A stretch of DNA of 64,000 nt. It comes from Amycolatopsis dendrobii (GTDB taxonomy: Bacteria; Actinomycetota; Actinomycetes; Mycobacteriales; Pseudonocardiaceae). The notes beneath the pieces are model-generated. The model saw nothing but the letters and a program-made list of their open reading frames with translations, did no database searches and was not told where the DNA came from. Each line of letters starts with the position of its first letter. Within the stretch, counting starts at the first letter, position 1. Of this stretch, positions 4,141 to 37,744 are shown piece by piece. A program made the translations under genes and the position numbers. The stretch covers positions 806,001 through 870,000 of the forward strand of contig NZ_JACGZW010000001.1 of assembly GCF_014145675.1 (NCBI RefSeq). Direction: 5' to 3'.

Positions 4141-5421
4141 CTAACCGGACTGCGCCGCGGGCTGATCGGCGGCAGCGGGTTGTTTCCCGGCCGGAGCGCG
4201 ACCGCGGAGCAGCACGACGGCACCGAGCAGCGTGAGCAGCTGCGTCGCGGCGAGCAGTGCGTACCCGGCGGCGAACCCGTGGTCGCCGCCCGCCGCGATC
4301 GCCACGCCCATCAAGGCCGGAAGCAGCGCGGACACCAGGTTGCCGACCCCGTTGATCATTCCGTAGGCACTGCCTACCGAGCCCGCCGGTGCGTATTGCT
4401 GCACCAGCGTCGGGATCGCGGGTCCTTGCAGGCCCCAGAACGCGTTGGCGAGGATCAGGGTCGCCGCCGCGAGCCAGCGCGAATCGGCGAACGTCACGGT
4501 CGTCGCGCACAGTGCGGTGCCGATGCTCCCGATCACGAGCACGAGCGGTGCCCGGCGGCCCGGCATCCGGTCGATGAGCCATCCGCCGAGGAACCCGGAC
4601 CCGAGGCTGACCACGAACGGCAGCGCGGACAGCGCGCTCATCTGCGCCAGCGAGAAATGCCGTGCTTGCAGCAAATACGACGGCAGCCAGGACGTGCTGC
4701 CCCACAGATAGCCGAGCGTCGCCACCTCGATCAGCAGGATCCAGCCGAGCTTGGGCGTGCGCAGCGCTCCCGCGTACCGCCGCAAGGCCGGCTCGCGGAC
4801 GGTCGTCCGGCGTCGCGAGGCTCGGACGAACACGGCGACCAGCGGCAGCCCGACCACCAGGTTGAGCGCCGCGAGCAGGAGGAACGAGCCGTGCCAGCCG
4901 AAGTGCACGAGAGCGAAGGTGATCACCGGAATGCCCAGCGCCGTGCCAAGGGAAACGCCCATCGAGCTGACCGCGTTGGGCTTGCCCCACGCGCCTTCGG
5001 CGAAATTGTCCTTGACGTACATGGTTTTCAGCGAGAACAGCGGGCCCTCGCTGGCCCCGAGCAGGAACCGCAGCGTCAGCAGCAGCAGCGCGCTGCCGGC
5101 GTACGGGGACACGAGGGTGAACAACGCCCAGCACGCCAGGCTGACCAGCAACCCGCGCCGCACCCCGAACACCGCTTCGTACCACGGCGTGATCAGCATG
5201 GCCGCGATTCCGTAGCCGGCCAGGAAAAGCGTCATCAGAGCGCCTTGCGCCGCCCGGTTGCCCGCGATCCCGAAGTGCTGGGCGAAAGCCGGATCGGTGA
5301 TCAGCACGGACACGTTGACCCGGTCGATGTACGAGATCGCCACCACCACGAGCAGCGCCAGCACACCCAGCCACGCGGTCATCGGCGCGCCGGGACGCCG
5401 GTCTTCGGTCGGCACGGTCAC
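4141..5421 (-). CDS. MFS transporter, anion:cation symporter (ACS, phthalate permease-like) family
   Basis: A 426-residue membrane protein with 12 predicted helices. The first helix ISYIDRVNVSV and the segment RFLLGASEGPLFS are typical of the ACS family (glucarate, galactonate and phthalate carriers). The GTG start at 5419-5421 is preceded by GGAAAGGAA. It is the upstream member of a two-gene unit with the MarR regulator. Substrate is likely a small organic acid; nothing in the neighbourhood defines it further. Last residues before the stop are hydrophilic, as usual for a cytoplasmic tail. Confidence 0.85.
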   Translation of the reverse strand: MTVPTEDRRPGAPMTAWLGVLALLVVVAISYIDRVNVSVLITDPAFAQHFGIAGNRAAQGALMTLFLAGYGIAAMLITPWYEAVFGVRRGLLVSLACWALFTLVSPYAGSALLLLTLRFLLGASEGPLFSLKTMYVKDNFAEGAWGKPNAVSSMGVSLGTALGIPVITFALVHFGWHGSFLLLAALNLVVGLPLVAVFVRASRRRTTVREPALRRYAGALRTPKLGWILLIEVATLGYLWGSTSWLPSYLLQARHFSLAQMSALSALPFVVSLGSGFLGGWLIDRMPGRRAPLVLVIGSIGTALCATTVTFADSRWLAAATLILANAFWGLQGPAIPTLVQQYAPAGSVGSAYGMINGVGNLVSALLPALMGVAIAAGGDHGFAAGYALLAATQLLTLLGAVVLLRGRAPAGKQPAAADQPAAQSG

Positions 5422-5591
5422 CGCGGTTCCTTTCCGGGCCGGACCATCGCGAGGCGGCCCGGACCGCGCGGACCCGCCGCGCCGCCAGACCGGCCGCCTC
5501 GGCCGGCGGGGTCGTCCGGAAGTATCTTTGTCCTAAGATGCTTATGTCAAGCTATCTCGGCAGGGTCCTCTCCCCCGTGCCCAACGCGGTG

Positions 5592-5650
5592 AACGTACGT
5601 GAGGGGACCTTGACGGAATCAGATTCCGTCAAGGTCCCCTCACGTACGTT
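5592..5650. repeat. Perfect 28-bp palindrome with CAG loop, terminator-like dispersed repeat (copy 1)
   Basis: Left arm 5592-5619 (starts AACGTACGTGAGGGGACC) is perfectly complementary to right arm 5623-5650, with a 3-nt loop, CAG, at 5620-5622. It starts 17 nt past the stop of the minus-strand pepE operon (5667) and could fold into a very stable hairpin. A diverged relative with the same GTGAGGGGA start and the same CAG loop lies at 31979-32025, again just past a minus-strand operon. A role in transcription termination or transcript 3'-end stability is inferred. Confidence 0.85.
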
Positions 5651-5666
5651 TGCGGGAGCGGGGCGA

Positions 5667-6401
5667 TCAGCCCCACACCGGTTCGCTCGCCGGCGCGAGC
5701 AGATCGCTCACATCACCGGAAAGATCCTCCCCGGGCACACCGCGCCGGAACAACCGCCCGGGCGCACCGCCGCTCGTCGACACCCCCGCCAGCTCCGCCC
5801 AGCCGCCCCGGACCCGCAGCCACGTGCCCTCGCGCAGGCCGAGCACCGGAATGTCGTTGCACTCGTGGAATTCCGCGAGCCGTTTCTCCCGGGTCTCGCC
5901 CATGTGCGTGCTGCCCGGGTCGGGGTCGACGTAATGCGGGTTGAGCTGGAACGGCACCAGGCCCAGCGACGTCAGGCTCGGCGGCTCCACGATCGGCATG
6001 TCGTTGGTGGTGCGCACGGTGGGCCCGGCGATGTTGGTGCCCGCGCTGGCGCCGAGGTACGGCATTCCCCCGGACACCCGGTCCCGCAACGGTGCCAGCA
6101 ACCCGCGCCGGTACAGCTCGGCCAGCAGGCGGAACGTGTTGCCGCCGCCGGTGAACACCGCCTGGGCCGAGCGCACCGCGGCGACCGGGTCGTCGGCGGT
6201 GTGCAGCCCGCGCACCCGCACCCCGAGCGGTGCCACCGCCGCGGCGATGCGCTCGGTGTAGCCGTCGTGGTCGGCCAGCGCGAACGGCACGAACAGCAAC
6301 TCGGCACGCCCGTCCAGCACCTCGGCCACCGCGTCCAGCGCGTGCTCCAGCGGAGCGCGGCCGTGGTTGGTCGAATTGGACAGTAACAGCAAGTCAGTCA
6401 C
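5667..6401 (-). CDS. pepE: Peptidase S51 family, dipeptidase E-like
   Basis: A 244-residue cytoplasmic serine peptidase of the PepE/cyanophycinase fold (E. coli PepE: 229 aa). Visible motifs are FTGGGNTFRLL, the nucleophile elbow YLGASAGTNIAG with the catalytic serine, and QLNPHYVDP carrying the likely catalytic histidine. PepE cleaves Asp-X dipeptides. The GTG start at 6399-6401 is chosen from GAGGAG 6 nt upstream. It is the last gene of a minus-strand operon, 29 nt after the M20 peptidase, and is followed by the palindromic repeat at 5592-5650. Joint work with the M20 peptidase and NCS1 permease on an imported acylated or acidic dipeptide is inferred. Confidence 0.85.
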   Translation of the reverse strand: MTDLLLLSNSTNHGRAPLEHALDAVAEVLDGRAELLFVPFALADHDGYTERIAAAVAPLGVRVRGLHTADDPVAAVRSAQAVFTGGGNTFRLLAELYRRGLLAPLRDRVSGGMPYLGASAGTNIAGPTVRTTNDMPIVEPPSLTSLGLVPFQLNPHYVDPDPGSTHMGETREKRLAEFHECNDIPVLGLREGTWLRVRGGWAELAGVSTSGGAPGRLFRRGVPGEDLSGDVSDLLAPASEPVWG

Positions 6402-6430
6402 GCGGTTCTCCTCGGTTCGCCCGCCATTGT

Positions 6431-7720
6431 TCAGCAAGTCCGCAGCAGCCGGTCCAAGACCCGCACGGAGAACCGCAGCGACTCCACCGGCACCCGTTCG
6501 TCCACGCCGTGGAACAGCCGGTTGTAGGGCAGTTCCGGCGGGACGCGCAGCGCCTTGAACCCGAAGCCGCGGATGCCGAGCCCGGACAGCGCCTTGTTGT
6601 CGGTGCCGCCCGCGTTGCAGTACGGCGTGGGGTGGCCGTCCGGATCCTCCGCGGTGACGGCCGCGCACATGGCGTCCACCAGGGGGCCGTCGAAGCCGCT
6701 CTCCATGGCGATGTCGCGATGGATGAACTCGCGGCGCACCGACGGCAGGAGCAGCTCGTCGATCGTGTCCAGCAGCTCCTGCTCGTACCCGGGCAGGAAC
6801 CGGCCGTCGACCGCGGCGGTGGCCCGGCCGGGGATGACGTTGACCTGGTACCCGCCGGAGATCATGGTCGGGTTCGCCGAATTGCGCAGGATCACGTTCA
6901 CCAGCTCCCCCACCCGGCCCATCCGCGCCAGGCTTCCGTCCACATCGGAGGGATCGAACGGGACGCCGAGCAGCTCCGCCGCGCGCTCCAGCAGCGCCCG
7001 CACCGGTTCGATCAGCCGGACCGGGAACCGGTGCCGCCCGATCCGGGCGAGCGATTCGGCGAGATCGGTGACCGCGTTTTCGTCGTTCGGCGAGGAACCG
7101 TGCCCGGCCCGGCCGGCGGCGGTCAGCCGCAGCCATGCCTGCCCGCGCTGCGCGCACTCGACCGGGTACAGCCTGCTGCCGTTGCCGAGGTCGAACGACA
7201 CCCCGCCGCCCTCGGTGATCGCCTCGCCCACGCCGTCGAACAGGTCCGGGCGGTTCTCGGCCAGCCAGTGCGAGCCGAATTTCCCGCCGCCCTCCTCGTC
7301 GGCGAGGAAGCCGAACACGATGTCGCGCGCGGGTTTCTCGCCGGTGCGGCCGAACTGCCGCGCCAGCGCGAGAATCGCCGCGTCGAAGTCCTTCATGTCG
7401 ATCGCGCCGCGGCCCCACAGCATGCCGTCGGCGATCTCGCCGGAGAACGGCGGGACGCTCCACTCGTCGGCGTCGGCGGGCACCACGTCCAGATGTCCGT
7501 GCAGGAGCAGCGCGGGCCGCGACGAGTCCACTCCGGACAGCCGGGCGAACACGCTGGCCCGGCCGGGCGCGCTTTCCACCAACGTCGGTTCCAGCCCGGC
7601 GTCGGAGAGTTTCTCCGCGACGTACTCGGCGGCCGGCCGCTCGGCCGCGCCCGGGTTGGACGTGTCGATCCGGATCAGGTCCCGGCAGAGGTCGACCACC
7701 TCGTCCTGCGCACCGGTCAC
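6431..7720 (-). CDS. M20 family zinc metallopeptidase (ArgE/DapE/ACY1-like deacylase)
   Basis: A 429-residue protein with the M20 metal-site order: HGHLDVVP (first His and Asp-containing motif), WGRGAIDMKD (bridging Asp), FLADEEGGG (catalytic Glu pair) and a late metal-ligand region near GGTDNKALSG/LFHGVDERV. The lid segment AGHGSSPNDENA is also present. M20 enzymes hydrolyse N-acyl amino acids, dipeptides or carbamoyl compounds. The GTG start at 7718-7720 has GAGGAGG upstream and overlaps the stop of the NCS1 permease gene (GTGA). The context points to processing of an imported amide-type compound rather than arginine or lysine biosynthesis. Confidence 0.85.
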   Translation of the reverse strand: MTGAQDEVVDLCRDLIRIDTSNPGAAERPAAEYVAEKLSDAGLEPTLVESAPGRASVFARLSGVDSSRPALLLHGHLDVVPADADEWSVPPFSGEIADGMLWGRGAIDMKDFDAAILALARQFGRTGEKPARDIVFGFLADEEGGGKFGSHWLAENRPDLFDGVGEAITEGGGVSFDLGNGSRLYPVECAQRGQAWLRLTAAGRAGHGSSPNDENAVTDLAESLARIGRHRFPVRLIEPVRALLERAAELLGVPFDPSDVDGSLARMGRVGELVNVILRNSANPTMISGGYQVNVIPGRATAAVDGRFLPGYEQELLDTIDELLLPSVRREFIHRDIAMESGFDGPLVDAMCAAVTAEDPDGHPTPYCNAGGTDNKALSGLGIRGFGFKALRVPPELPYNRLFHGVDERVPVESLRFSVRVLDRLLRTC

Positions 7721-22311: not shown

Positions 22312-22420
22312 GCTTCGGCGGTCTTGCCTGCCCGCGGGATTTTCCCTGCCCCACAGCCAAAGCGCTATATCAGTAGCAGCAGCATCCCCCGGCAGCATAG
22401 GATTCCGGCGCGGGGAACGA

Positions 22421-22492
22421 CATGGAGTAGATCAGCGGCAGATCGCCTGGCTCGGGACCGGGAAGGCGCGGGTTCGAGTCCCGCCTCCATGT
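22421..22492 (+). tRNA. tRNA-like gene 1, anticodon position CGG (formally Pro), atypical
   Basis: A full cloverleaf can be drawn: acceptor CATGGAG/CTCCATG, TA, D-stem GATC/GATC with loop AGCGGCA, anticodon stem CCTGG/CCGGG with loop CTCGGGA (anticodon 22453-22455), variable AAGGC, T-stem GCGGG/CCCGC with loop TTCGAGT, then T as the discriminator base. Flanking AC/GT bases would extend the acceptor helix to 9 bp. No CCA is encoded. It does not look like a normal actinobacterial tRNA-Pro: T at position 73 is not the expected A. Its neighbour copy differs by compensatory changes in the stems, so the fold is under selection. It may be a tRNA mimic, not a decoding tRNA. Confidence 0.68.
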
Positions 22493-22505
22493 CCATCCCC
22501 CGCCT

Positions 22506-22578
22506 CTTGGAGTAGTTCAGCAGGCAGAACACCCGGCTGTTCCCCGGGAAGGCGCAGGTTCGAATCCTGCCTCCAAGT
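22506..22578 (+). tRNA. tRNA-like gene 2, anticodon position GTT (formally Asn), atypical
   Basis: Cloverleaf: acceptor CTTGGAG/CTCCAAG, TA, D-stem GTTC/GAAC with loop AGCAGGCA, anticodon stem CCCGG/CCGGG with loop CTGTTCC (anticodon 22539-22541), variable AAGGC, T-stem GCAGG/CCTGC with loop TTCGAAT, then T. It starts 13 nt after copy 1 and is clearly its duplicate. Three base pairs differ by double, compensatory changes (acceptor pair 2, D-stem pair 2, T-stem pair 3), while the anticodon loop has diverged freely. Position 37 is C, where a normal tRNA-Asn has A, and position 73 is T, not G; no CCA follows. It ends 23 nt before the start of the 758-aa protein gene. Confidence 0.7.
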
Positions 22579-22601
22579 CTTGACCACCGGGGGGAATCCA
22601 C

Positions 22602-24878
22602 ATGGGACACACCGCGTCGCCGACGTACGCCTACGGGCAGCTCCAGCGAGCCGTCCGCACCGCCCTGTCCGCGAAGGACGGCGCGACCCGCAAGCGGGCG
22701 CAGGCGAAAGCCAGCCAGTGGCAGGACGTCCTCACCGGCATGGCCGCCGGTTCCCTGCGGATCGGCTCGCGGACTCCGGTCGCGGACACTCCGGCATGGA
22801 TCACCCTCGAGGTCGTGCACGGCGGGTTCGCCACCGGGCGGTTCCTGGCCGAGGTCCCGCTGTCTCCGGAGGAAGCAGCGCTGTCGGGCACGAACGACCG
22901 CGAGCGGCTCAACCTCTGGTACCTCACCGACGGCGGGCTCGCCACGCTGCGGGGCATGCTCGCCACCGAGTCCTACCGGATCGAAGTTCCGGAGGACGCC
23001 GCGCTGCCGACCGTGGCGTGGCTGCTGGAGCACGGGCACGCCGAATCCGCGCTCGACTTGATCGAGGAGCTTCGTCCGTACTTCCATCGCTTGCGCCTCG
23101 CCCCGCTGCCCGGCGCGGCGCCGCGACCGGCTGGCGCGTCGGTTCGGCTGAGCACCGTCGGCGAAGTCCGGGAATCGCTGCGGTCGGCGAGCACCCCGCC
23201 CGCGGTCGCGGCAATGCTCGAAACGCTCAAGGTCTGGCATCCGCTGTTCGACCGGCTGGTCGCGCTGTGGTGCGACACCGTCGAAGGCGACCTGCCGCGG
23301 CTGGACGAAACCGGCGTCACCGGCGGCTGGCCGTGCCGCACCTGGCCGCGGGACTGGCAGCAGCGCCGCGGCGAATGGCTCGCGGACTATGCGAGCGCGA
23401 GCGCCCAGCACACCGCGTCGACCGCGCACGCGCACCCGAAGAGCAACTTCGCCCGGCTGCATCGCGCGTTGCTGGCGTGCGAGCACGACAGCACGGAACT
23501 GACCGGCCGGGACGTCGGCTGGATCCGCCGTGCCCTGGCGAACACGATCACCAAGCACGGCGAGCCGGACTCGGAACCGCGCGCAGCACTCCGGGCGCTG
23601 CAAGCCTCGGTCGCCGCACGGCCCATCCACGCCGAACTCGCCGCCGCGATGGTCGAACGGCTGGACCGCTTCCCGGCCGACGGCGGGCTGCCGTCGATCG
23701 AGCCGGTCGCGGAGGACGCTCCGGCGCACCTGGTCGCCAAGGTCGCCCGCGCGCTGGAGGCGCCGATCGAGGAGCTGGTCGCGCGGAAGGTGATCACTTC
23801 GGCCGACGTCCTCGCGACGGTCCTGCCGCAGATCACCGCGCAACTGCTGGCCGCGAACTTCGACGACGAGCAGCTTTCGACGCTCTACGCCCAGACCTAC
23901 GCGGCCTTCCGCCGCCGGCGCGGCTTGCTGCTGCTCGACCTGGAAAACCAGGTCCGGATCGAGGAACTGCCCTGGGTCCACGCGATCGACCCGCTGCGAG
24001 CGCGGCGTCCAGACGCCACCCGGGCGGCCCGCCAGACCCTCGACCAGACAGTCTTGCTCGCGCTCACCGCGTTCCCGCAGGCGATCCTGCCGAACACGCT
24101 GGTGCGCGAACTCGGCGCGCTGGCGAAACAGGCCGGGATGCCGATGCCGCTGGTGGAGGAGGTCGCCGCGGACATCTTCATGGGTACGTTCACCGCGAAA
24201 TGGCGCACGGCAGCAGAATTCGCGAGCCGCACGATGGCGGGCACGGTCTACGCCCGCTACTACGACCTGCCGGAGTCCTGGGCGTCGGCACCACGCCCGC
24301 GCCCGTTCCGCGCGCTCGCCAAGCGCACCGCCGACGACTTCGCCGACGTGTGCGTGGCCCGAGCCGGCGGAGCGCGGCCGTCGTGGCGCTTCCGTTCGGT
24401 CGCCGTGAACGGCACCGTGCTGGAACAGAGCCAGATTCTCACCACGCAGAATCTGGCAGTCCTGGTGCACACGCTCGATCTGCGGGACCGGCTCCAGGCA
24501 GCGGCGCCCGAACTGGCCGCACAGTCGTTGACGTGGACGGTGACCCGGCTGGCGACCCGCACCGACCATCACCACGCAGCCCTGCAAGCGGTCAAGAACG
24601 CCGCCTACGCCTGGCGGCAGGCGCTGTTCTTTTTGAGCTTCTGCGACGAAGACGCTCAGCGCGCGACCGTCCGCCGGCTCGCCGAGCAGGTGGCCCGCGC
24701 GGGCCTGGCCGAACGGTTCGCCCCGGCAGTGAACGGCTTGGCGCACGTCGTGGAAGGCGGCCGGTTCACGGCGGACGGCCGGACGGACGACGGAGCAGGA
24801 CGGCGTTTCCTCGGCTGGACCACGGGCAAGCACTGGTGCCTGCCCGTGGTCCGGAAGAAGGGTTCAGCGGGCCTGTGA
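22602..24878 (+). CDS. Unrecognised 758-aa protein encoded directly after two tRNA-like genes
   Basis: I do not recognise this protein. It has no signal peptide and no membrane helices, is rich in Ala, Arg and Leu, and appears mostly helical. This resembles helical-repeat or HEPN-like all-alpha proteins, but no catalytic motif could be identified. Patterned segments are LPTVAWLLEHGHAESALDLIEELRPYFHRLRL (about residues 128-159), GLLLLDLENQVRIEELPWVHAIDPL (mid-protein) and HHHAALQAVKNAAYAWRQALFFLSFCDEDAQ near the C-terminus, which ends FLGWTTGKHWCLPVVRKK with a basic tail. ATG at 22602 follows GGGGGGAA. The tRNA-like pair ends 23 nt upstream, so RNA and protein are probably one transcript or one functional unit. 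The last 15 bp overlap the convergent AraC gene. Confidence 0.75.
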   Translation: MGHTASPTYAYGQLQRAVRTALSAKDGATRKRAQAKASQWQDVLTGMAAGSLRIGSRTPVADTPAWITLEVVHGGFATGRFLAEVPLSPEEAALSGTNDRERLNLWYLTDGGLATLRGMLATESYRIEVPEDAALPTVAWLLEHGHAESALDLIEELRPYFHRLRLAPLPGAAPRPAGASVRLSTVGEVRESLRSASTPPAVAAMLETLKVWHPLFDRLVALWCDTVEGDLPRLDETGVTGGWPCRTWPRDWQQRRGEWLADYASASAQHTASTAHAHPKSNFARLHRALLACEHDSTELTGRDVGWIRRALANTITKHGEPDSEPRAALRALQASVAARPIHAELAAAMVERLDRFPADGGLPSIEPVAEDAPAHLVAKVARALEAPIEELVARKVITSADVLATVLPQITAQLLAANFDDEQLSTLYAQTYAAFRRRRGLLLLDLENQVRIEELPWVHAIDPLRARRPDATRAARQTLDQTVLLALTAFPQAILPNTLVRELGALAKQAGMPMPLVEEVAADIFMGTFTAKWRTAAEFASRTMAGTVYARYYDLPESWASAPRPRPFRALAKRTADDFADVCVARAGGARPSWRFRSVAVNGTVLEQSQILTTQNLAVLVHTLDLRDRLQAAAPELAAQSLTWTVTRLATRTDHHHAALQAVKNAAYAWRQALFFLSFCDEDAQRATVRRLAEQVARAGLAERFAPAVNGLAHVVEGGRFTADGRTDDGAGRRFLGWTTGKHWCLPVVRKKGSAGL

Positions 24879-35749: not shown

Positions 35750-37744
35750 GTGCCAGCACCTATGTCATGGCTCAAACGGCTGGTGCTCGGGCGGCCGTTC
35801 CGGAGCGACACCCTCGGCGAAACGCTGTTGCCCAAGTGGCTCGCCCTGCCCATTTTCGCCAGCGACCCGCTGTCCTCGGTCGCCTACGCCACCCAGGAGA
35901 TCCTGCTGATCCTCTCGATCGGCGGGCTGACGTATCTGGTGCTCGCCCCGTGGGTCGGACTCGCGGTCGCGGTCCTGCTCAGCGTGGTGGTCGTGTCCTA
36001 CCGGCAGGTGGTGAAGGCCTATCCCAGCGGGGGCGGCTCGTACGAGGTCGCCTCGCGCAACCTCGGCAGCCACGCCGGGCTTGTCGTCGCCGGCGCGCTG
36101 ATGGTCGACTACATCATGACCGTGGCGGTGTCGGTCGCCTCCGGCGTCGACAACATCATCTCCGCCGTGCCCGGCCTCAACGGCTACCGGATCGCACTCG
36201 ACATCGGCTTCATCGTCGTCCTGACCGCGATGAACCTGCGCGGCCTCCGCGAATCCGGGCGCGCGTTCGCCGCGCCGACCTACCTCTTCGTGGTCGCGGT
36301 GCTGCTGATGATCGCCGTCGGCTTCTCCCGCACGCTCGCCGGGCACGCACCGGTCGCCGAGAGCGCGGGCTACGCGATCCGTCCCGAACAAGTGGGATTG
36401 ACCGGATTCGCCCTGATTTTCCTGCTGCTGCGGTCGTTCTCGTCCGGCTGCACCGCGCTCACCGGCGTCGAAGCCATCTCCAACGGCGTGCCCGCGTTCC
36501 GCAAGCCGAAAGCCGTCAACGCGGCCCGCACGATGACCGCGATGGGCGTCATCGCGGTCGTCATGTTCGGCGGCATCACCGCGCTCGCGCTGATCGCGAA
36601 GGTGCACATCGCCGAGAACGCCTGCGATCTGGCCGGGTTCGCCGGCCAGTGCGCGACCGACCCGCAGCGCACGGTGATCAGCCAGATCGGCGCCGCGGTC
36701 TTCGGCGGCGACCACGCCGTCCTGTTCTATTTCCTCCAGGCCACGACCGCGCTGATCCTGATCCTCGCCGCGAACACCGCGTTCAACGGCTTCCCGCTGC
36801 TGGCCTCGATCCTCGCCAAGGACCGCTATCTCCCCCGCCAACTGCACACGCGCGGCGACCGGCTGGCGTTCTCCAACGGCATCATCGCGCTCGCGCTCAT
36901 CGCCGCCGTCCTGATCTACGCGTTCGACGGCTCGACCACCCGGCTCATCCAGCTCTACATCCTCGGCGTGTTCACCTCGTTCACGCTGTGCCAGGCGGGC
37001 ATGGTGCGGCACTGGAACCGCGAACTGGCCGCGGGCACCGGAAGCCGGCACGCGATCCAGCGCTCCCGCGCCATCAACGCCCTCGGCGCGACCCTCACCG
37101 CGATCGTCCTCGCGGTCGTGCTGGTCACCAAGTTCACCCACGGGGCCTACCTCGTCGTCATCGCCATCCCCGCGCTGTACGTGATGATGCGCGCCGTTCA
37201 CCGGCACTACACCCACGTCCGCGAAGAACTGCTTCCCGACGAGGAAAGCGAACTGCTGCCCAGTCGCGTCCACGCCATCGTGCTCGTGTCCACTTTGCAC
37301 AAACCGAGCCAGCGTGCGATCGCCTTCGCCCGCGCCACCCGGCCCGACACGCTCACCGCGATCACCGTGAACGTCGACGACGCCGAAACCCGCGAGCTGC
37401 AACGGCAATGGGAACGCCGCGGCATCAAAATCCCGTTGAAGGTCGTGGAATCGCCCTACCGCGAAATCACCCGCCCGGTCGTCGCCTACGTGAAGAACTT
37501 CGCCCGGTCCAGCCCACGCGACGTCGTGTGCATCTACATCCCGGAGTACGTCGTCGGCCGCTGGTGGGAGAACATCCTGCACAACCAGAGCTCCCTGCGG
37601 CTCAAGGGACGACTGCTGTTCGAACCCGGCGTCATGGTCACCAGCGTCCCGTGGCAGCTGCGGTCGAGCAGACGCCGCGATCTCCAGCGCGTCCGTCCGT
37701 TGCCGGGCGATCTCCGCAGGGGGGTCACCGCTCGGCGCAGCTGA
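35750..37744 (+). CDS. APC superfamily permease, KimA-like (potassium importer / amino acid permease)
   Basis: 664 residues: an N-terminal APC-fold membrane domain of about 470 residues with 12 helices, then a soluble tail. The start LPKWLALPIFASDPLSSVAYATQEILL and the core SYRQVVKAYPSGGGSYEVASRNLG match the KimA/YdaO branch, whose Bacillus member is a K+/H+ symporter. The tail (IVLVSTLHKPSQRAIAFARATRPDTLTAITVNVDD...) resembles the nucleotide-binding universal-stress-like domain seen in that branch. The GTG at 35750 or ATG at 35762 could be the start. Location beside CPA1, CLC and ArsB/NhaD genes fits ion homeostasis. Confidence 0.85.
   Translation: MPAPMSWLKRLVLGRPFRSDTLGETLLPKWLALPIFASDPLSSVAYATQEILLILSIGGLTYLVLAPWVGLAVAVLLSVVVVSYRQVVKAYPSGGGSYEVASRNLGSHAGLVVAGALMVDYIMTVAVSVASGVDNIISAVPGLNGYRIALDIGFIVVLTAMNLRGLRESGRAFAAPTYLFVVAVLLMIAVGFSRTLAGHAPVAESAGYAIRPEQVGLTGFALIFLLLRSFSSGCTALTGVEAISNGVPAFRKPKAVNAARTMTAMGVIAVVMFGGITALALIAKVHIAENACDLAGFAGQCATDPQRTVISQIGAAVFGGDHAVLFYFLQATTALILILAANTAFNGFPLLASILAKDRYLPRQLHTRGDRLAFSNGIIALALIAAVLIYAFDGSTTRLIQLYILGVFTSFTLCQAGMVRHWNRELAAGTGSRHAIQRSRAINALGATLTAIVLAVVLVTKFTHGAYLVVIAIPALYVMMRAVHRHYTHVREELLPDEESELLPSRVHAIVLVSTLHKPSQRAIAFARATRPDTLTAITVNVDDAETRELQRQWERRGIKIPLKVVESPYREITRPVVAYVKNFARSSPRDVVCIYIPEYVVGRWWENILHNQSSLRLKGRLLFEPGVMVTSVPWQLRSSRRRDLQRVRPLPGDLRRGVTARRS

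Follow-up and report, generated by a model that had tools for sequence, protein, structure and literature searches.

A probable actinobacterial module of tRNA look-alike RNAs with a fast-changing anticodon loop and a predicted nearly all-helical protein

We analyzed a stretch of 64,000 nucleotides (nt) from the 9.7 Mb genome of Amycolatopsis dendrobii (C1:806001-870000, hereafter the window), in which two tRNA-like RNAs stand in tandem directly upstream of a gene for a 758-amino-acid (aa) protein. Comparison with other actinobacterial genomes showed that such RNAs accompany the homologs of this protein with great regularity, and the sequences indicate that RNA and protein very probably constitute a dedicated module. 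This defines a large family of actinobacterial RNA–protein modules. The body of the RNA evolves with the protein, whereas the anticodon loop does so far less and changes fast in a molecule that is slow elsewhere. We tentatively propose that the RNAs imitate tRNAs and may act as bait or decoys for anticodon-cutting ribonucleases, with the protein holding or guarding them.

The first RNA of the window (positions 1–74 at 22421–22493, + strand) bears the anticodon loop CTCGGGA (22451–22457), and the second (positions 1–74 at 22506–22579, + strand) the loop CTGTTCC (22537–22543), with a C at position 37. The ATG of the 758-aa open reading frame (ORF; 22602–24878, + strand) starts 22 nt past RNA 2. 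ARAGORN called both RNAs as tRNA genes (22421–22495, anticodon cgg, and 22506–22579, anticodon gtt), and the Rfam tRNA model RF00005 matched them at 59.0 and 62.2 bits, respectively, against a gathering score of 29. As aligned, both display C1:G72, T73, C74, a 5-nt variable loop, and standard stems. Thus, the tandem cloverleaves and the gene following them, which the original prediction had read from the letters of this stretch, are confirmed, and the arrangement is more general than was noted there. The three compensatory changes that set the copies apart were recovered as pair 2:71 (A-T/T-A), a D-stem pair (A-T/T-A), and a T-stem pair (G-C/A-T), and T73 in both copies and C37 in the second had also been seen rightly. 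The supposed absence of CCA, in contrast, applies to RNA 2 only, with RNA 1 having T22492 followed by an encoded CCA (22493–22495). Nor is a missing CCA diagnostic, because in Streptomyces coelicolor 53 of the 65 tRNA genes lack an encoded CCA, which is added after transcription (available text of PMC4681348). What stood of the earlier reading as a whole is therefore the pairing of tRNA look-alikes with a dedicated protein other than Rsr; its argument from the missing CCA did not.

Matches to the protein were found in 20 of 298 genomes of the order, 27 of 394 of the class, 27 of 80 Amycolatopsis genomes, and 43 of 295 Streptomyces genomes. These four search sets, pooled and freed of repeats and of two very weak cases (G091 and G022, E 7e-5 and 1e-4), gave 107 protein-positive genomes. 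Covariance-model searches of the loci and whole genomes found an RNA immediately 5' of the gene, on its strand, in 103 of them (G260 was scored positive on a 34-bit match and G915 negative despite one of 22 bits). The remaining four (G774, G781, G796, and G915) feature only gene remnants without the N-terminal part, and no intact gene without the RNA was seen in the genomes searched. Across the 80 Amycolatopsis genomes, RNA matches of at least 76 bits occur in all 27 protein-positive and none of the 53 protein-free genomes, the best matches in the latter (at most 71.7 bits) being taken as ordinary tRNAs. Among the 295 Streptomyces genomes the RNA is present in 40, namely 39 of the 43 protein-positive and just one of the 252 protein-free ones. 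In this exception (G914) the locus has decayed and lies close to the end of a contig: a 17-codon open frame follows the RNA and the contig stops 328 nt further on. Hence, the expectations that homologs carry the RNAs upstream, and that the RNAs do not occur widely on their own, were both borne out. The RNA also lies upstream in all six held-out plasmid records with a homolog, including two Curtobacterium homologs with only ~33–34% identity to the window protein, and in 7/7 loci of a ~650-aa Streptomyces subfamily.

Three overlapping searches, each with about 8000 scored candidates, returned 972, 1152, and 463 homologs over threshold, from Amycolatopsis, Streptomyces, Kribbella, Nonomuraea, Actinomadura, Curtobacterium, and others. 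The names among the best 120 matches per search are hypothetical or uncharacterized protein, in some cases transcriptional regulator, and once secreted protein. To look for shared neighbors, we clustered the ORFs of at least 130 aa (E 1e-12) from 25 loci. The input was 20 kb each from 20 loci, 21 kb from the window, and 12 kb from another four loci, of which three are closely related to the window. Besides the protein itself and ORFs overlapping it, no cluster was present in more than six loci. This lack of a widely shared neighbor points to a stand-alone unit of RNA and protein. The same clustering revealed no shared RtcB neighbor, in agreement with the absence of RtcB noted earlier, although no hidden Markov model search for RtcB was made.

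The alignment speaks for a real structured RNA. A plain MAFFT alignment covering 32 of the RNAs has 99.8% of its cells paired, with double changes at nine pairs; its covariation score is 0.355, versus 0.089 for shuffled alignments (0/500) and at most 0.064 for slid controls. The family alignments span the cloverleaf, and at the gathering score Rfam gave RF00005 only. Two clades can be distinguished, and after removal of nine duplicate loci (which applies equally to the Mantel, start-codon, and promoter-element counts below) the type of T-loop splits exactly with the protein clade, with the TT-type in 40/40 loci and the GG-type in 64/64. Clade 1, including the window, possesses U54, U55, C56, and A58; clade 2 instead has G54 G55 C56 G58 and thus lacks U54, U55, and A58. 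The D-loop follows the T-loop type, changing from G18 G19 to A18 G19 (61/62 and 68/70), such that the joint change from G18-U55 to A18-G55 accounts for 129 of 132 RNAs. Although this amounts to one event between the two clades, it suggests maintenance of the L-shaped elbow through a non-tRNA contact. Further, distances between the RNA stems correlate with those between the proteins (Mantel r 0.72 and 0.63 for 37 and 57 loci, 0/500 permutations as high), whereas the loops do so far less (r 0.23 and 0.33, 0/500 permutations). These patterns are consistent with a protein gripping the RNA body, with the loop left to something else.

The product of the 758-aa gene is without a known family. Changes at its first and second codon positions run at about one third of the four-fold rate, which establishes that the gene is real and constrained by purifying selection. 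For the window protein we obtained no match in Pfam, NCBIfam, PADLOC, or PDB sequence searches, including any synthetase (Pfam and PDB) or any ToxN/CptN/TenpN-type toxin (Pfam, NCBIfam, and PADLOC). PHROGs gave none for three members, nor did PDB for the family profile. TROVE is absent from the Pfam families matched by 35 clade-1 and 10 clade-2 members, in keeping with the earlier claim of a partner other than Rsr. Weak matches below the cut-off, each in 4/35 clade-1 members, were to McpB HAMP (E 0.0021) and wHTH-Hsp90 associated (E 0.0094), and are not common to the family. AlphaFold2, run on a 122-sequence alignment, confidently predicted a fold built almost entirely of helices, plus a few short strands (pLDDT 93.3, pTM 0.89), much as the all-helical partner had been envisaged. 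Among the families listed by Foldseek and VIA-align there was no convincing relative for the whole model or for residues 375–758, the best VIA-align rows for the whole model covering one helix pair; TROVE, HEPN, and synthetase folds were not noticed in these lists, which excludes nothing. Conserved blocks include residues 55–79, 435–459 (with AFRRRR), and 514–538; that they bind RNA is a guess. We also considered the MoxR–vWA–β-propeller (bpX) ternary system, bpX3 being weakly matched in 6/35 clade-1 (best E 0.021) and 0/10 clade-2 members. It was set aside, with no MoxR-like shared neighbor in the 25-locus clustering, two bpMoxR loci elsewhere lacking a tRNA, and nothing gained from comparison with the available text of PMC7159879.

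The anticodon loop behaves differently from the rest of the RNA. In an unfiltered recount of 135 distinct RNAs lying at most 260 nt upstream of the gene, the loop starts with CU (positions 32–33) in 132, and none of the 134 with at least six loop bases has A34. Unfiltered counts were used here because the filter itself inspects the loop start. The filtered set comprises 132 RNAs, i.e., 177 aligned matches less 24 dropped (a loop not of 6 or 7 nt, a start other than CT, CG, or TT, a T-loop not of 7 nt, or one of five named rows) and 21 identical copies; A34 is again missing (0/132). The window genome's own tRNA loci show A34 in 1 of 43 anticodons called. Avoidance of UpA was rejected as the reason, as loops such as CTGTAAT hold UpA elsewhere. 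Of the filtered loops, 118 have seven bases, with 27 different anticodons, and 14 have six. Position 37 is a pyrimidine in 28 of the 118, and the amber anticodon CTA appears once. RNA 1 of the window has the 7-nt loop, U33, and purine 37 of a canonical tRNA, and RNA 2 has C37. Judged by the six-base loops, the pyrimidines at 37, and the T-loop of clade 2, the RNAs in much of the family could hardly decode.

Between Amycolatopsis loci with 84–99.5% protein identity, the loops differ in 123/141 RNA pairs (a count including three loci that are second copies of the same strains), and at least one loop differs in 9/10 non-overlapping pairs of loci. With those three duplicates still included, the difference at loop positions 34–37 is 0.25–0.54, against 0.02–0.03 for the body and 0.14–0.23 for four-fold sites; with them removed the loop range is 0.25–0.46, versus 0.20–0.27 for upstream intergenic DNA with gaps ignored. 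Summed over the ten non-overlapping pairs, 19/60 loop sites (34–37), 22/1128 body sites, and 829/4380 four-fold silent sites differ (loop over four-fold sites P 0.013; loop versus body ~1e-15). Thus, the loop evolves at about 16 times the rate of the body and at a modestly higher rate than the neutral proxies. Despite this speed, it stays within the range of real anticodons. In 109 of the 118 seven-base loops the anticodon occurs among 55 distinct ARAGORN calls at the window genome's other tRNA matches (a few of which are possibly false), and in 69 of these N37 equals that of the cognate tRNA, versus 37.8 after shuffling and a maximum of 55 in 20,000 shuffles. This agreement is driven by G36-G37: where G36 is present G37 follows in 52/53, as in real tRNAs.

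A loop that keeps within real anticodons, lacks A34, agrees in N37, changes fast, and often could hardly decode suggests imitation rather than translation, and a fast loop on a slow body favors a bait or decoy over a generic Y-RNA-like role. We envisage that a single transcript carries the RNAs and the ORF, from which tRNA-processing enzymes would excise the RNAs. The protein might then bind the RNA body and leave the anticodon loop exposed, with the tRNA shape drawing anticodon-cutting ribonucleases, such as tRNase toxins of rivals, anticodon nucleases triggered by phages, or VapC-like toxins. The loops would diversify by copying the host tRNAs under attack. The protein would respond to the cut, and may either do no more than shield a sacrificial decoy or use the cut RNA to raise an alarm or arrest growth. 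The stronger version, in which the protein keeps expendable look-alikes for surveillance, the nuclease cuts the bait first and thereby triggers the protein, and the anticodons rotate between species, is one that we put forward with somewhat more hesitation. There is precedent for parts of this scheme: anticodon loops have been described as the site of an arms race, with VapC, PrrC, and colicin D and E5 as weapons cutting there (available text of PMC10264068), and the tRNA-like domain of YrlA has been suggested to be a competitive inhibitor of an anticodon nuclease (available text of PMC7790460). Should the bait proposal be true, the module would be an RNA-based guard system whose anticodon would reveal, genome by genome, the tRNA under attack. 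If false, it is still a new RNA–protein pair with an accelerated anticodon loop and is directly testable.

Several observations weigh against the bait proposal. First, the module is known from sequence, and bait, binding, and response are all inferred from it. Second, the excess of the loop rate over neutral is modest (1.2–1.7 times upstream intergenic DNA), and the rate by itself is therefore compatible with an unconstrained loop. Third, the likeness to real anticodons is uneven: without G36, A37 is found in 34/35 real tRNAs but in 25/65 of these RNAs, and A35 is rare for no apparent reason (4/118 versus 11/43 in the own tRNA loci). Fourth, some anticodons recur or hardly vary: CGG recurs in 23/118, the Cys-type GCA is nearly fixed (6/7) in the ~650-aa subfamily (L154–L160), and two RNAs of one locus (L213) share TCG. 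We accordingly dropped the idea that the anticodons within a locus always differ; identical loops within a locus (0/45; first and last copies 0 seen against 0.7 by chance) are no rarer than chance would allow. Fifth, family and fold searches offered no effector, nuclease, or sensor domain, the 25-locus clustering no defense genes common to the neighborhoods, the phage records no match (query P0232 only), and the viral contigs none either. Finally, Salmonella YrlA is itself not cut by the anticodon nuclease (available text of PMC7790460).

An alternative which we consider unlikely is a pair resembling type III toxin–antitoxin systems in layout: the protein would be toxic, the tRNA-shaped RNAs would occupy its tRNA-binding surface, and loss of the RNA would free it. 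One to three RNAs lie upstream of the protein gene and on its strand, often in tandem, with two or more at 41/113 loci (counted before duplicate loci were removed) and a promoter-like element in front. The patchy distribution (27/80 and 43/295 genomes), the broken copies, and the carriage on plasmids are in the same spirit, as is the tracking of the protein by the RNA body. The persistence of the RNA by some deleted genes, set beside the lack of any intact gene without it, also fits a needed antitoxin. The RNA is, however, a cloverleaf, and searches of Pfam, NCBIfam, and PADLOC placed the window protein in none of their toxin families. Were the RNA an inhibitor that binds with its body, there would also be no reason for the loop to be fast and yet stay near real anticodons.

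We find it improbable that the RNAs are special tRNAs, charged and decoding particular codons for programmed mistranslation or codon supply, with the protein as a modifier or delivery factor. The retention of the T-loop TTCGA and the tRNA-like scores of clade 1, the absence of A34, and the agreement in N37 would all be natural for working tRNAs. ProRSx pairs in Streptomyces offer a parallel, as does the unusual decoding tRNA-Asp-AUC of the same genus (available text of PMC9262613). Against this, six-base loops, pyrimidine 37, and the single CTA would be odd choices for decoding, clade 2 lacks U54, U55, and A58, position 73 is G or T in 128/132 RNAs, and the partner has no synthetase match by sequence.

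Similarly low odds attach to a role purely in cis, whereby the folded leader controls downstream processing or translation through feedback by the protein or competition for tRNA-processing enzymes. The distance between RNA and gene speaks in its favor. In clade 2 the start codon lies 0–2 nt past RNA position 74 in 63/64 loci (3/40 in clade 1), such that a ribosome-binding site could not fit between RNA and start codon; hence, translation likely needs 3' processing of the RNA, which would yield a nearly leaderless mRNA, and a coupling of the two processes is probable. That the promoter-like element precedes the RNA is equally in line with a leader. In most Amycolatopsis loci, by contrast, a gap of ~21–26 nt has a Shine-Dalgarno-like site, and in the window's clade the mRNA would retain this site after excision; a leader leaves this unexplained, together with the one to three copies, the fast loop, and the absent A34. 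The Curtobacterium copies also have a longer gap from RNA to start. Lastly, the ARAGORN and Rfam tRNA calls speak for ordinary tRNA genes, or for a tRNA at which a mobile element integrates, beside an unrelated gene, but both ideas are rejected as already contradicted: the genome's own tRNA-Pro and tRNA-Asn genes have different bodies, the RNAs are a separate covariance family found with the protein gene, their anticodons change between species, and no neighbor such as an integrase is widely shared in the 25-locus clustering.

As for the signals around the window RNAs, TAGGAT (22398–22403, + strand), a −10-like element, lies 17 nt 5' of RNA 1 and may be the promoter of the whole unit of RNAs and ORF. 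TANNNT is found 8–22 nt 5' of the first RNA in 85/104 loci, as compared with 10/104 and 1/104 in control intervals of equal width. The Shine-Dalgarno-like GGGGGGA (22589–22595, + strand) was picked out by eye. ARAGORN called many of the family RNAs as tRNAs with odd anticodons and missed others. Its tRNA-Arg (ccg) call elsewhere in the window (36997–37072, − strand), within a 730-aa ORF of the opposite strand, is likely false, having no Rfam support at the gathering score. About 200 kb before the window, six Rfam tRNA matches cluster (G000:C1:603502-604166, L191), two of them the weakest of the genome.

Certain loci merit mention in their own right. At four of them (L089, L162, L165, and L238) the RNA is kept though much or all of the gene is gone, and the RNA can therefore outlast the gene for a while. 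Close to a plasmid copy in Streptomyces yangpuensis (L210, 1–7427, gene 5001–7427) lie transposase genes of IS982 and IS21, which points to mobility. The RNAs of the ~650-aa subfamily vary in the anticodon stem despite the nearly fixed GCA. Second protein matches in two genomes (G597, C145, and G850, C527) are fragments without an RNA. A weak protein match in the window's own genome (C2:370469), near a true tRNA-Asn, was taken as chance, and a 73.9-bit RNA match apart from the gene in G693 is a tRNA-Met by ARAGORN.

In the searches made, the RNA–protein partnership was unmatched to any known system, and searches of the open-licence PMC literature, a coverage outside which preprints and most subscription papers fall, turned up no account of the module. 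Where their hallmarks were tested, it departs from the Y RNA/Rsr system, RtcB operons, type III toxin–antitoxin systems, and ProRSx. Type III systems such as ToxIN have tandem RNA repeats upstream, a pseudoknot RNA, a small endoribonuclease toxin, and a terminator between the two. The layout here is alike in its one to three upstream RNAs on the same strand, but the pseudoknot, the small endoribonuclease, and an intervening terminator were not seen. In ProRSx, an extra tRNA-Pro variant with an altered anticodon is tied to a synthetase partner gene, whereas the partner here has no synthetase match. Phage tRNAs are likewise tRNA-shaped, with anticodon loops thought to evolve under tRNase attack; these are, however, predicted to be insensitive and to decode (available text of PMC10264068), while the RNAs here are bacterial, fixed to one gene, and often unlikely to decode. 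The tRNA-Asp-AUC of desert Streptomyces is also an odd tRNA gene with a conserved cluster 3' of it on the chromosome arms, but it decodes GAU with C33 and A34 (available text of PMC9262613) and is by this loop unlike the present RNAs, with their CU start and no A34. Its four-gene cluster, as described there, includes a MoxR-like ATPase, which is not a shared neighbor here, and is set apart by that description. In Streptomyces SPC6 and S. collinus this tRNA gene lies 5' of the four-gene cluster, possibly another tRNA-linked module (available text of PMC9262613). RtcR resembles the proposed role in being a protein that reads tRNAs cut in the anticodon loop; it senses the 5' halves of host tRNAs via a CARF domain (available text of PMC7790460), in contrast to dedicated look-alikes and a protein without a CARF match. 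The closest known system is YrlA/Rsr, where in the rsr-yrlBA-rtcBA operon a tRNA-like RNA is similarly encoded beside its protein partner (available text of PMC7790460). The present module differs from it in having no TROVE/Rsr match and no shared RtcB or RtcA neighbor, and in its RNA, which as aligned looks like a cloverleaf and nothing more, is present one to three times, and varies in the anticodon loop.

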